Shown in pieces: positions 25,174-29,544 of a stretch of 36,810 nucleotides of DNA. This stretch comes from Bacteroidales bacterium. GTDB taxonomy: Bacteria; Bacteroidota; Bacteroidia; Bacteroidales; P3. The stretch's first letter is position 1. Each line of letters starts with the position of its first letter. The notes below the pieces were generated by a model. That model did not search any database. It was not told the DNA's origin and worked only from the letters and a program-made list of their open reading frames with translations. The stretch is taken from assembly GCA_017428115.1 (NCBI GenBank), contig JAFRRK010000002.1, positions 1-36,810 on the forward strand, read 5' to 3'. The position numbers were made by a program, and so were the translations under genes.

Positions 25174-25701
25174 TCATCCAGTCATCAACTCATCAGCCAG
25201 CCGTTTCGCCTCGGCACTGAAAGGCAGCATATAATACACCGACATACCATCGCGATAAAACTCTACCGCCCCCCACCGCTTCCAATAGCTGTGTGTCTTT
25301 AAGCGGTGCATAACCGGTATAAACACAAAATCAAAGGTCTGCAGATCGTCCCAAATATGTCTAATCATGTCGTAGTTGAGCCGTGTGCCTCGGTAAGGCT
25401 CAGCCACAATAAAGGAGAACACAGCCACATATCTCAGCTCGTTCAGCTGCGACAACAGCAAAGGCTGCTCCACAATCATCTGCTCAGTCTCCTCCTCAAT
25501 GCGATAGTCGCTCATATTAAGTAGCCCTATAGCCCTCCCCTCCACATCTAGTGCTTTCACACTCAAATCCCAATTAAAATGCAGGCACCTTACCCACCAC
25601 CGCACCTCATCAGGGTCAAAACCATACTGGCTTACCATCCAATCGACAGTCAACCCAGCATCGGACTCAGTCATCCGTCGCAGCAAATAGTCTAACGGCA
25701 T
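25174..25701 (-). CDS. GNAT-fold N-acetyltransferase-like protein
   Basis: A 175-residue cytosolic protein with a degenerate GNAT pattern: a polar N-terminal beta-alpha start (MPLDYLLRRMTESDA), a central strand YVAVFSFIVAEPYRGTRLNY in the place of the acetyl-CoA binding motif A, and a late THSYWKRWGAVEFYRDG like the end of GNAT domains. The usual RxxGxG/A loop is reduced to YRGTRLN, so the cofactor use is uncertain. It starts 10 bp inside the end of the DUF2156 gene and is surely co-transcribed and translationally coupled with it. The pair may modify the same substrate. Confidence 0.6.
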   Translation of the reverse strand: MPLDYLLRRMTESDAGLTVDWMVSQYGFDPDEVRWWVRCLHFNWDLSVKALDVEGRAIGLLNMSDYRIEEETEQMIVEQPLLLSQLNELRYVAVFSFIVAEPYRGTRLNYDMIRHIWDDLQTFDFVFIPVMHRLKTHSYWKRWGAVEFYRDGMSVYYMLPFSAEAKRLADELMTG

Positions 25702-26621
25702 GATATGGTAACATTATTAAAACCTAGCAACGTGTGAGGATGATACGACAACTTCGATTTCCTCAAACCCTCCAAACCCATATCCTCCTCGCGATTCACA
25801 TAAACATACTGTTCGGGTAGGTGCGAGGCAAATTGTTGGTTGATGATATTAAACGCCCCATCAATAGTGCGGTCTGCCTTCTCAACACACACATCAAACG
25901 TGTCGTATGTCACTGCTGCGCCATAGGTAAACGCCACCATCCTCCCACCATCGTAGATACAACCACCCCTCATGCCCAACTCATCCCAATGAGCCAGCAC
26001 AGTCTCCATTGCACGCCGCTCGGCACGCACCGTCTCGTCATAAAAAGGGGTGTCCTGATGTACCTCGTTACGCCAAAGCATCGACAATTCGCGACATTCA
26101 CCAAACCGCTCGGGCGTTAAATCCACATACTCAAATGCCGGGTGCTCCGACAGAAATTTATTCACGTGGTTGCGCTTCGCCTTGAGGTTCTTGCCCTTCA
26201 TCTCCGCCAACTCTTGCCTCAAATAGATATAGTCATATTGGCTCCTCCGAGGCTCTATATCCACCCTGTCGGGCATTAGCGACTTAACATAGTCGGCATA
26301 GTCATCCTCCAATCCTATTATCCTCAGCTCCGACCCCCATTGGGCGGCATCGGCACACAACAGACCCAGCAACCGTTCAGAAGGTGGCTCGGCGCAACAA
26401 ACCATATACGCCCGCCTTCCATCCATATTAAAACGAAACACCGCCACATCCCCCTTCACACACACCTCGGTATTAAACCAAAACTGCCACCCAATCAAGT
26501 TGGCAAAAGTCAGATTACAATTCCTCAGCCCTGCCGCAAGCGTCACCTCCTGCACCACCCCCCTGTCCTCGACGGTCAACATGTGAAAATCCATCTGTCC
26601 CGCACTATTTTCAATCAGCAT
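25692..26621 (-). CDS. DUF2156 family protein (aminoacyl-phosphatidylglycerol synthase C-terminal-like)
   Basis: A 309-residue protein, soluble by sequence, with the double GNAT-like fold of the DUF2156 family, related to the catalytic part of MprF. The family block KGKNLKAKRNHVNKFLSEHP lies near residues 140-160. Others are CIYDGGRMVAFTYGAA and the C-terminal NREEDMGLEGLRKSKLSYHP. MprF-like enzymes move an amino acid from tRNA to a lipid; stand-alone Bacteroidetes members have no proven activity and lack the membrane half. It is first in a two-gene minus-strand operon with the GNAT-like gene, with a -7 box 55 bp upstream. Confidence 0.85.
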   Translation of the reverse strand: MLIENSAGQMDFHMLTVEDRGVVQEVTLAAGLRNCNLTFANLIGWQFWFNTEVCVKGDVAVFRFNMDGRRAYMVCCAEPPSERLLGLLCADAAQWGSELRIIGLEDDYADYVKSLMPDRVDIEPRRSQYDYIYLRQELAEMKGKNLKAKRNHVNKFLSEHPAFEYVDLTPERFGECRELSMLWRNEVHQDTPFYDETVRAERRAMETVLAHWDELGMRGGCIYDGGRMVAFTYGAAVTYDTFDVCVEKADRTIDGAFNIINQQFASHLPEQYVYVNREEDMGLEGLRKSKLSYHPHTLLGFNNVTISCR

Positions 26622-26857: not shown

Positions 26858-27805
26858 ATGAAAAGAATACTTATAGTAGGTGCAGGCGGACAGATAGGCT
26901 CCGAACTGACACGCAATCTTAGAGACATCTATGGCGACAACAACGTAGTATGCAGCGACCTTCGTCCCCTCAAGGGCGACCCCTACGAGCGCGGCCCCGT
27001 AGAGCGTATCGACTCCACCCAAATCATGCAGATAGCCACCGCCGTAAAGCAGTATAACATCGACACCATCTACAACCTCGCAGCCATACTCAGCGCCACT
27101 GCAGAGCTGAACCCAATGCTAGGCTGGAACGTGGGCATCGGTAGCCTAGTCAACTGCCTCGAGGTGGCACGCCTCTTCGGCTGTGCCGTGTTCACACCCT
27201 CCTCCATAGGAGCCTTTGGACCCAGCACACCCCACGACAACACCCCGCAGGACACCATCCAGCGCCCCAACACCATCTACGGTGTCACCAAAGTGACTGG
27301 CGAACTACTCTCCGACTACTATTTCACCCGCTTCGGTGTCGACACCCGCAGCGTCCGCTTCCCAGGTCTCATAAGCTATCAGACACTCCCAGGCGGTGGC
27401 ACCACCGACTATGCTGTTGAAATCTACTATGCCGCTGTCAAAGGCGAAAAGTTTGTCTGCCCCCTCAATAAAGGCACCTACATGGACATGATGTACATGC
27501 CCGATGCACAGAAAGCCATGATCGACATCATGGAAGCCGACCCCAGCAAACTGGTCCACCGCAACAGCTTCAACGTAACAGCAATGAGCTTCGACCCAGA
27601 AATCATATACAACACCATTCGTAAACGCTACCCCAACTTCGAAATGGTCTACGAGCCCGAACCCATCAAACAGGCTATCGCCGACAGCTGGCCCAACAAG
27701 ATGGACGACTCATGCGCCCGCAACGAATGGGGCTGGAATCCTCAATATGACCTTGAGCGCATGACCGACGACATGATTCTCAACCTAAAGAAGAAACTGC
27801 TCTAA
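26858..27805 (+). CDS. L-threonine 3-dehydrogenase, SDR (epimerase-like) type
   Basis: A 315-residue cytosolic NAD-dependent enzyme of the extended SDR family. It has the nucleotide loop GAGGQIG (8-14), an S-x(n)-YxxxK catalytic set with SSIGAFGP and Y141/K145 (YGVTK), and family blocks NLAAILSATAE, RFPGLISYQTLPGGGTTDYAVE and WPNKMDDSCARNEWGW. These match the SDR-type threonine dehydrogenases of Bacteroidetes and trypanosomes, which oxidise L-threonine to 2-amino-3-oxobutyrate. The partner kbl (glycine C-acetyltransferase) is not in the window. A nested hairpin follows the stop. Confidence 0.92.
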   Translation: MKRILIVGAGGQIGSELTRNLRDIYGDNNVVCSDLRPLKGDPYERGPVERIDSTQIMQIATAVKQYNIDTIYNLAAILSATAELNPMLGWNVGIGSLVNCLEVARLFGCAVFTPSSIGAFGPSTPHDNTPQDTIQRPNTIYGVTKVTGELLSDYYFTRFGVDTRSVRFPGLISYQTLPGGGTTDYAVEIYYAAVKGEKFVCPLNKGTYMDMMYMPDAQKAMIDIMEADPSKLVHRNSFNVTAMSFDPEIIYNTIRKRYPNFEMVYEPEPIKQAIADSWPNKMDDSCARNEWGWNPQYDLERMTDDMILNLKKKLL

Positions 27806-27826
27806 CACCATATAAGCACTATCAAT

Positions 27827-27873
27827 AAAGTGAATAGCCCAACCAACCCTATGGTTGTCGAGCTATTCACTTT
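27827..27873 (+). terminator. Nested hairpin terminator after threonine dehydrogenase
   Basis: AAAGTGAATAGC (27827-27838) pairs perfectly with GCTATTCACTTT (27862-27873). Inside the loop CAACC (27844-27848) pairs with GGTTG (27853-27857). The A-start/T-end arms make it potentially bidirectional. It separates the gene from the lipoprotein pair. Confidence 0.75.
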
Positions 27874-27903
27874 ACTAATCCACTCACTCCTATAGCCATA
27901 ACG

Positions 27904-28728
27904 ATGCCAATCACGCGCACACATGTCGTCGTCTTGCTAATTAGCATGCTAGCTCTTTCGGCATGCGACAATAGTAACAATCCTCTTAGCCAGCCAATGG
28001 ACAACAATGAATGCCTTATCTGCGGAGCACCATTAGAGTACCTTGACAACGACACCTTGATGGAATGCGCCATCTGCCACCAACAGGAAATGAGCAAGGT
28101 CCGTTGTAACAAAGGTCATTATGTCTGCAACAACTGCCACATGACCGGCATGGACTCCATCATAGCGCTCTGTCTTAGCGACACATCCAAGAATCCCATC
28201 GACATACTTGAGCGGATGATGTCGCAACCCTTCTGCCATATGCATGGCCCCGAACACCACGTCCTAGTAGGAGCCGCCCTTCTAGTGGCCTACCACAATG
28301 CCATTTCGCCCGAAACCGACAGCCTCGACCTCCCCTCCGCACTGCTAGAAGTGATGAGCCGCGGCCGCCAAGTACCCGGTGGGGCATGCGGCTATATGGG
28401 AGCCTGCGGAGCAGCCATCAGCACCGGAATATTCATGTCCGTCGTAACTAGCAACACCCCTCTCTCTACCGACAGCTGGAGGCTCTGCAACCTAATGACT
28501 GCCCGCGCACTCGAGCAAGTGGCCCTCAACGGTGGCCCCCGTTGCTGCAAACGAGACTCATACATATCAATCCTCACGGCAGTCGACTTCGTCAAAGAAC
28601 ACTTAGGAGTGGAGATGATCAAACCACAAGTAACCTGCTCACGCAGTCAATTCAACAATCAGTGTATAGGACATCAGTGCCCCTTTGCACCTGCCAACCG
28701 TACAAACCACAAAAGACAAACTGAATAA
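27904..28728 (+). CDS. DUF5714 domain lipoprotein
   Basis: A 274-residue protein. Residues 1-20 are a lipoprotein signal with lipobox LSAC (C21), so the product should be anchored in the envelope. The rest, from ECLICGAPLEY near residue 36, is a full DUF5714 domain. It has a double CxxC zinc-ribbon-like start (CLIC, CAIC), GHYVCNNCHMTG, PFCHMHGPEHHVLVGAALL, SRGRQVPGGACGYMGACGAA, GGPRCCKRDSY and a C-terminal CIGHQCPF. At least 15 cysteines, many paired, suggest metal or Fe-S/zinc binding. DUF5714 proteins I recall from archaea and anaerobes begin near the CxxC and have no signal peptide, so export is unusual. An internal start at residue 32 (MDNNECLIC) would give the cytoplasmic form. The flavin-reductase-like lipoprotein follows 26 bp later. 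The function is unknown. Confidence 0.8.
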   Translation: MPITRTHVVVLLISMLALSACDNSNNPLSQPMDNNECLICGAPLEYLDNDTLMECAICHQQEMSKVRCNKGHYVCNNCHMTGMDSIIALCLSDTSKNPIDILERMMSQPFCHMHGPEHHVLVGAALLVAYHNAISPETDSLDLPSALLEVMSRGRQVPGGACGYMGACGAAISTGIFMSVVTSNTPLSTDSWRLCNLMTARALEQVALNGGPRCCKRDSYISILTAVDFVKEHLGVEMIKPQVTCSRSQFNNQCIGHQCPFAPANRTNHKRQTE

Positions 28729-28754
28729 TTATTAATCAATTAAAAATCATATTC

Positions 28755-29474
28755 ATGAAACGTATCCTTCTTACCTCTATTGCCTCACTGGCACTGGCAT
28801 TGTCGATGTCGGCCTGCTGTGGCGACAAAAACGAAACCGAAGAGGCCGCCAACTGCTGTGGCAACAAAGAGCAGTGTGCCAAGTTGCAACTTGCTCCAGT
28901 AGCCGAACGCACCAACATGGGTGCCAAAATATTCGTCACCCCCCAGCCGGCCCTAATGATCGGCACCTACGACGAGCAGGGCAACCCCGACGTGATGATG
29001 GCTGCCTGGGGCGGCCAGTGCGACGGCAACCAAGTCTGCTTCCGTCTCTCGCCCCACCGCACAACCACCAACCTGCGTGCCACCCGCGAGTTCACCCTCA
29101 GCTATGCCACCATACGCGATGTGGCCGAGAGCGACTACTTCGGCACCGTCTCTGCCAACGACGTGCCCGACAAGATTGCCCGCACCAACTTCACCGTCAC
29201 CAAGAGCCAAAACATCAACGCCCCCATCATCGACCAATATCCGCTGACGCTTGAATGCCGCGTGATTGAGATAATGGAGCGTGGCAACGACGGCTGCTTC
29301 GTCATCGGCGAGATAGTCAACACCATCGCCGACCCATCCATCCTCACCGACGGCCGCATCGACCTCGACAAACTTCAGCCCATCGTCTTTGATGCCGCCA
29401 TCCCCGCCTACCGTTCCGTTGGCGACACCGTAGGACGTGCCTGGGGTGCCGGTCAGAAATTCATCGAGAAATAG
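28755..29474 (+). CDS. Flavin-reductase-like (FMN-binding split barrel) lipoprotein
   Basis: A 239-residue protein. Residues 1-20 are a lipoprotein signal with lipobox MSAC (C21, followed by C22). A Cys-rich acidic linker to about residue 45 contains CC, CC and C. From residue 46 on it is a typical flavin-reductase/NADH:FMN oxidoreductase-like split barrel: TPQPALMIGTYDEQGNPDVM, MAAWGGQCDG, SPHRTTTNLRATREFTL, SYATIRDVAESDYFG. Such domains bind FMN and are usually cytoplasmic. Here an envelope location is predicted, and the gene lies 26 bp after the DUF5714 lipoprotein gene, so both likely form one redox-related unit. A strong terminator follows. Confidence 0.85.
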   Translation: MKRILLTSIASLALALSMSACCGDKNETEEAANCCGNKEQCAKLQLAPVAERTNMGAKIFVTPQPALMIGTYDEQGNPDVMMAAWGGQCDGNQVCFRLSPHRTTTNLRATREFTLSYATIRDVAESDYFGTVSANDVPDKIARTNFTVTKSQNINAPIIDQYPLTLECRVIEIMERGNDGCFVIGEIVNTIADPSILTDGRIDLDKLQPIVFDAAIPAYRSVGDTVGRAWGAGQKFIEK

Positions 29475-29500: not shown

Positions 29501-29544
29501 AAGAACCACACCCTTGTCAAAAGCCAGGCAAGAGTGTGGTTCTT
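29501..29544 (+). terminator. Intrinsic terminator after the DUF5714/flavin-reductase operon
   Basis: AAGAACCACAC...CTTG (29501-29516) pairs with CAAG...GTGTGGTTCTT (29529-29544), with one internal C/A mismatch and a 12-nt loop. The following bases are CTTTC. Confidence 0.8.

Follow-up and report, generated by a model that had tools for sequence, protein, structure and literature searches.

Exported DUF5714 and flavoredoxin-like proteins in a Bacteroidales genus, and an arsenic neighbourhood for the cytoplasmic DUF5714 form

Known flavoredoxins are cytoplasmic proteins, and covalent flavinylation by ApbE takes place at the motif Dxx[ST]GA[ST]. The function of the Pfam family DUF5714 (PF18978) is unknown, and in the one open-access literature collection searched neither name occurs in any paper. 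Among described proteins, the metal-binding double selenoprotein MbdU (NF045648), listed with a 'CU' motif in an excerpted review table (PMC13188914), resembles the DUF5714 protein studied here: residues 31-269 of the latter, i.e. its ribbon and DUF5714 domain, align with positions 35-273 of the MbdU profile (E 8.7e-38). However, this match reaches 130.4 bits against a curated cut-off of 600 and leaves the C-terminal part of the profile unmatched. Our protein also differs from MbdU in that codons 214-215 are TGC TGC (Cys-Cys), its 274-aa ORF has no in-frame TGA, and it carries an export signal. From the alignment, we infer that the CU of MbdU corresponds to the CC pair at residues 214-215.

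Other systems offer partial parallels. Cytoplasmic DUF5714 proteins of Clostridia that lie beside, or are fused to, ArsC-like proteins share the core and the conserved Cys/His set of our protein, but have no signal peptide, and arsenic genes adjoin or are fused to them in some loci. For the flavin protein encoded next to DUF5714, the flavoredoxins of Desulfovibrio (2d5m) and Methanosarcina (3bnk) are similar in sequence and are the top Foldseek matches; unlike these cytoplasmic proteins, it is a predicted lipoprotein, with FMN binding as a prediction. Exported flavoproteins are not odd in this genus, because it also encodes lipoprotein flavodoxins (PF12682), which are lipobox-bearing electron carriers of flavin type and a precedent for export, although they belong to another family with another fold. 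ApbE-flavinylated FMN-bind proteins differ from our protein in their flavinylation motif, for which its 239 residues contain no match.

The window, i.e. the whole stretch of 36,810 nucleotides analysed here, belongs to a genome of 103 contigs that is ~80% complete. On its forward strand, the gene for the DUF5714 lipoprotein (27904..28728, 274 aa) is followed by the gene for the flavoredoxin-like lipoprotein (28755..29474, 239 aa) after a gap of 26 nt (28729..28754, +) in which the hairpin scan found no hairpin. A recheck of the sequence bore out the earlier note on this arrangement, including the lipoboxes at Cys21 of both ORFs (LSAC and MSAC). The same note had placed the pair between two terminators. 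Strong hairpins do flank it on both sides, one upstream (27826..27874; -23 kcal/mol, z -8.2) that is a candidate terminator of the preceding SDR/epimerase-like gene (26858..27805, +), and one downstream (29501..29544; -25.2 kcal/mol, z -5.9), also a candidate terminator, but a consensus terminator scan of the forward strand lists nothing at either. That these hairpins act as terminators is plausible. Neighbours in the window scanned with Pfam and NCBIfam profiles comprise SDR, MenA, MenG, LPG_synthase_C and one unnamed protein. Upstream, the opposite strand (25692-26621, -) encodes a protein whose C-terminal domain is of phosphatidylglycerol lysyltransferase type (PF09924), and the SDR genes of L245, L307 and L073 likewise have such a gene nearby.

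The DUF5714 domain covers residues 86-261 of the first protein and positions 1-172 of the 173 in the profile, with a score of 228.2 bits (E 6.1e-68; gathering cut-off 26.2). Its core (28159..28686, +), delimited by the profile match and an alignment of divergent members, contains H119, C162, C168, C214, C215, C245, C254 and C259. All eight are present in the window protein and in 31/31 valid rows of the divergent alignment, which had 32 rows with L024 discounted as wrongly extracted, and which did not include L018. This last protein is an exported orthologue with Tyr at position 215, so the Cys/His set is not absolute. Upstream of the core, two alignments mark a zinc-ribbon-like CxxC..CxxC..C..C segment at residues 37-78 (28012..28137, +), which is optional in exported orthologues. 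The description of the family as rich in paired Cys therefore holds for the window protein, where the ribbon is present, but not for several exported orthologues that lack it; the conserved residues lie in the core. The predicted structure is confident and mainly helical, with an N-terminal beta ribbon, and the searches found no solved structural relative of DUF5714.

DUF5714 was found in 22/59 genomes of the genus, 46/190 of the bacterial family and 9/395 of the phylum, as well as in 35/391 genomes of the class to which L137 belongs (34 above cut-off). Close matches include Bacteroidales MAGs from rumen and horse faeces. In the other loci of an 80-locus set of matches, DUF5714 usually begins with M-x-EECLIC, straight at the zinc-ribbon-like segment. 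Degenerate copies with an in-frame TGA are present at L234:4800-5300 (G628) and L296:3722-4394 (G906).

The second protein has a Flavin_Reduct domain (PF01613, E 2.3e-12) at residues 63-192 (28941..29330, +), and profile, solved relatives and predicted fold agree on a split barrel of FMN-binding type. Its best solved relatives are the flavoredoxins 2d5m (E 1.5e-25) and 3bnk (E 4.8e-17), and 2d5m is also the top Foldseek match (E 1.9e-10) when the predicted model, whose confidence is low (mean pLDDT 57.5), is used as the query. Among the residues that we take to be the FMN contacts of flavoredoxin (N29, W35, T56, K92 and H131), the window alignment retains W35 and K92 only. The Cys-rich linker to which the earlier note drew attention (residues 21-41; 28815..28877, +) is present in the window but is not kept among orthologues. 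Lipobox-bearing Flavodoxin_4 proteins are encoded near DUF5714 genes of the genus at L064:8279-9088 and L075:10076-10900.

Each of the two window proteins starts with the features of a bacterial lipoprotein, i.e. an n-region with positive charge, then a hydrophobic stretch, then a lipobox whose last residue is Cys21. In DUF5714, the signal peptide (residues 1-20, LSAC; 27904..27963, +) precedes Cys21 at 27964-27966 and is recognized from the sequence, by comparison and by rule; in the flavoredoxin-like protein it also covers residues 1-20 (MSAC; 28755..28814, +). Our lipobox rule, which was written after the family sequences had been inspected, scores n-region charge, a hydrophobic stretch and a lipobox before a Cys in the first 36 residues. 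It is passed by 41/48 DUF5714 ORFs of the bacterial family (51 match rows minus two G906 fragments and one G871 fragment), compared with 0/69 in a first control (L100-L168 without L106, which is a genus member) and 0/29 in a second (L180-L208). Four of the seven failures (L005, L016, L263 and L286) have no signal. Of the other three, L259 carries a signal of ordinary type, L295 is truncated at the end of its contig, and L289 combines a lipobox with an acidic residue, which the rule does not allow.

The rule is likewise passed by all 42 examined close orthologues of the flavoredoxin-like protein. The set scanned, which took in part of the homologue rows, comprised 61 loci and 59 rows, of which 42 resemble lipoproteins, 7 carry an ordinary signal peptide as judged visually, and 10 have neither. 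In the sister genus g179, seven of the eight separate flavoredoxins examined, L297-L303, have an ordinary signal peptide ending in '..NAQ', and the eighth (L304, 41% identity) has none. No export signal was found in the 10 rows below 49% identity (9 genes, L304 included).

The lipoprotein signals of DUF5714 diverge in sequence across the family. For example, the signal sequence of the window protein is unlike that of L014, its closest relative with the paired arrangement, but the two share 84% identity from about residue 32 onward, a pattern that fits a signal of which the function alone is preserved. A tree of 74 of the 75 chosen DUF5714 cores, built by a quick method with L289 labelled as a lipoprotein by eye, requires four changes of the lipoprotein label, at least two of which are forced by well-supported branches. 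Export status has thus apparently changed more than once, in a tree that does not separate gain from loss, and three genomes (G020, G032 and G882) each hold a cytoplasmic and a lipoprotein copy. Given these conserved yet divergent signals on both proteins, the envelope location proposed earlier is well supported, and we regard it as nearly certain that both are envelope lipoproteins by prediction.

Cytoplasmic DUF5714 is an arsenic-neighbourhood family, a link that was absent from the earlier note. ArsC-type or ACR3 genes, the only matches counted, lie within 1.5 kb of DUF5714 in 22/110 cytoplasmic-form neighbourhoods. Beyond that distance there are none, although the sequence covered there is more than double in length (binomial P = 2.5e-12, with the 1.5-kb limit chosen after part of the data had been seen). 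Four duplicate-genome loci were dropped from this count and near-copies (such as L222/L223 and L150/L151) were kept, and the loci are not independent. The other 88/110 have no ArsC-type or ACR3 gene nearby. The ArsC-type partner, related to arsenate reductases of thioredoxin type with the LMWPTP fold, is fused to DUF5714 in 7/80 loci and near it in 6 more; we name these partners ArsC-like because they score under the NCBIfam arsenate reductase cut-offs. The fusions are from gut Clostridia (L135, L145, L148, L150, L151, L155 and L158), and the ArsC-like part of the L150 protein matches with E 1.3e-23.

Larger arsenic clusters are also found. In L220, DUF5714 faces ACR3, ArsC, ArsA and ArsD, with ArsD, ArsA and ACR3 above the NCBIfam cut-offs and ArsC under, and the order in L133 is ACR3-ArsC-DUF5714, with ACR3 above its cut-off. 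Three annotated plasmid regions were read: that of L. eligens has ArsR-DUF5714-LMW phosphatase, that of P. bifermentans (Paraclostridium) has DUF5714 convergent with arsM, ACR3 and ArsR, and that of Selenomonas has no ars gene. A radical SAM domain is joined to a C-terminal DUF5714 in L225:3701-6073 (+) and L231:5650-8109 (-), with an ArsM-query match just upstream; the L225 neighbourhood contains an ArsR-type regulator, a thioredoxin-thioredoxin reductase protein and a methyltransferase that is ArsM-like but scores under the cut-off. Radical SAM and DUF5714 genes are present unfused in L222/L223. Matches to ArsR and ArsM queries also occur at larger distances from DUF5714, some of them merely menaquinone-type methyltransferases.

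Given these neighbourhoods, the reading that we favour, with confidence a little short of even, is that a domain whose Cys/His residues handle arsenic or a different thiophilic element has been moved to the envelope together with a flavoprotein electron donor. It starts from what the sequences themselves contain, i.e. the two families, their export signals and the conservation of these, the arsenic genes near cytoplasmic members, and a fusion of the two proteins in genome G947. The mainly helical DUF5714, with its eight conserved Cys/His, would bind or turn over a thiophilic metalloid of arsenite type at the Cys cluster, or the cluster may instead be a dithiol redox centre. That DUF5714 is a thiolate domain of one kind or the other, whether it handles a thiophilic metal or metalloid or serves in thiol redox, is probable. 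The second protein would be an electron carrier of flavoredoxin type with a presumed FMN, and would hand electrons either to the substrate or, by a supposed direct contact, to the thiols of DUF5714; electron flow in this direction, with the flavoredoxin as donor, is proposed only tentatively. As both proteins are lipoprotein-signalled in this uncultured genus, the same chemistry would run at the envelope.

The starting point of this reading could be questioned if DUF5714 were translated from Met32, its apparent signal peptide being non-coding and the protein cytoplasmic, a condition that the earlier note had named as refuting its proposal. Cytoplasmic DUF5714 proteins do begin exactly there, and the row nearest to the window protein (L263, from G973, another genus of the family), with a core 84% identical, is cytoplasmic and has no signal. 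Against this stand the divergent lipoboxes of most family ORFs and the exported orthologues L007, L010, L017 and L019-L021, in which the ribbon is absent and only a short linker separates the signal peptide from the core, leaving nothing that corresponds to Met32; the internal start is highly improbable. A stronger challenge is that the two are unrelated envelope lipoproteins, with DUF5714 inserted in one lineage between the SDR gene and a flavoredoxin that does some other envelope redox task, and the operon incidental. Among the nearest flavoredoxins, which form a subclade of 89-100% identity, the SDR gene is upstream in 8/8 loci, from abutting to ~0.5 kb away, and DUF5714 lies between the two only in the window and G006. 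The SDR neighbour is constant in this subclade only, because it flanks 15/52 flavoredoxin rows above 50% identity, duplicates included. Among the 59 genus genomes, DUF5714 occurs in 22, the flavoredoxin lipoprotein in 29 and both in 11, which is the level of chance (10.8 expected; Fisher P = 1.0) and speaks against an obligate partnership, and in the 20 other genus genomes with DUF5714 no flavoredoxin lipoprotein was seen beside it in the flanks examined, some contigs ending nearby. Across the 46 family genomes with DUF5714, the two genes are adjacent in two (the window and G006) and fused in one, a count that also weighs against the favoured reading and may hide a few cases where contigs end near the gene. 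However, the genes are linked elsewhere. In G947, of genus g179 in the same family, a single 405-aa ORF (L259:931-2145, -) consists of a signal peptide, DUF5714 (E 6.3e-71) and Flavin_Reduct (E 8.5e-9), with a C-terminal end shorter than in relatives. L137, from Oscillospiraceae, has a run of three genes in which the one for a cytoplasmic DUF5714 overlaps the ArsC-like one and a flavoredoxin homologue comes next. L137 is the only scanned cytoplasmic-form locus with such a homologue within 0.5 kb; L150 has one 3.9 kb off. From these gene arrangements, the fusion and the L137 run favour a real link and, set against the rare adjacency and chance-level co-occurrence, they indicate genes that are linked in some lineages and are not obligate partners. 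A functional pair is plausible, and the incidental operon is possible but doubtful. The metal/flavin redox pair suggested earlier thus stays reasonable as an idea for a pair that is hardly conserved: the search for a signal-bearing DUF5714 beside a flavin reductase yielded G006 and the G947 fusion, but not the other family genomes. Within the searches made, no described system matching the exported pair was found, in agreement with the earlier note.

If the favoured reading is kept, its substrate has to be weighed as well. ArsC-type or ACR3 genes are near 0/46 exported DUF5714 loci, window included, compared with the 22/110 of the cytoplasmic form (Fisher P = 2.8e-4), and no ArsR or ArsM match was found in the scanned exported-form loci, so that no arsC, arsB/acr3, arsR or arsM cluster like that of an arsenic resistance operon was seen in them. 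ACR3 is above cut-off in just 3/59 genus genomes. Because of these two observations, an arsenic role for the exported form stays an extrapolation from the cytoplasmic one, and arsenic specifically as its substrate is rather unlikely. Together with L018, which lacks C215, the empty neighbourhoods weigh against the favoured reading and are in line with an exported DUF5714 that acts on another thiophilic metal (Hg, Cd, Zn or Cu) or in disulfide/thiol redox, the arsenic link being confined to the cytoplasm. Cytoplasmic DUF5714 of other Bacteroidales (L104) beside CrcB and ZIP genes points the same way; at L104:7590-9507 and similar loci, the gene lies between CrcB-like and ZIP-type transporter genes. 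By contrast, the core Cys/His set is common to exported and arsenic-linked members. We consider such a non-arsenic role a serious possibility, while leaning somewhat against it.

The most useful new lead is that an arsenic-neighbourhood family appears, from sequence comparison, to have gained export signals in this bacterial family. In its boldest form, i.e. that DUF5714 is an unrecognized arsenic-handling component which gut Bacteroidales relocated to the envelope, perhaps repeatedly, together with a flavoredoxin, this idea is improbable. If true, arsenic or a similar thiophilic element would be captured or reduced outside the cytoplasm, ahead of its uptake, by a system that runs on flavin. 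For a Pfam family of unknown function, the arsenic neighbourhoods and ArsC-like fusions offer a testable role. If flavin is bound by the second protein, a flavoredoxin-type class would be added to the exported flavoproteins. An exported DUF5714, once fused to flavoredoxin, suggests that metalloid or metal redox chemistry may take place outside the cytoplasm in bacteria of the animal gut.
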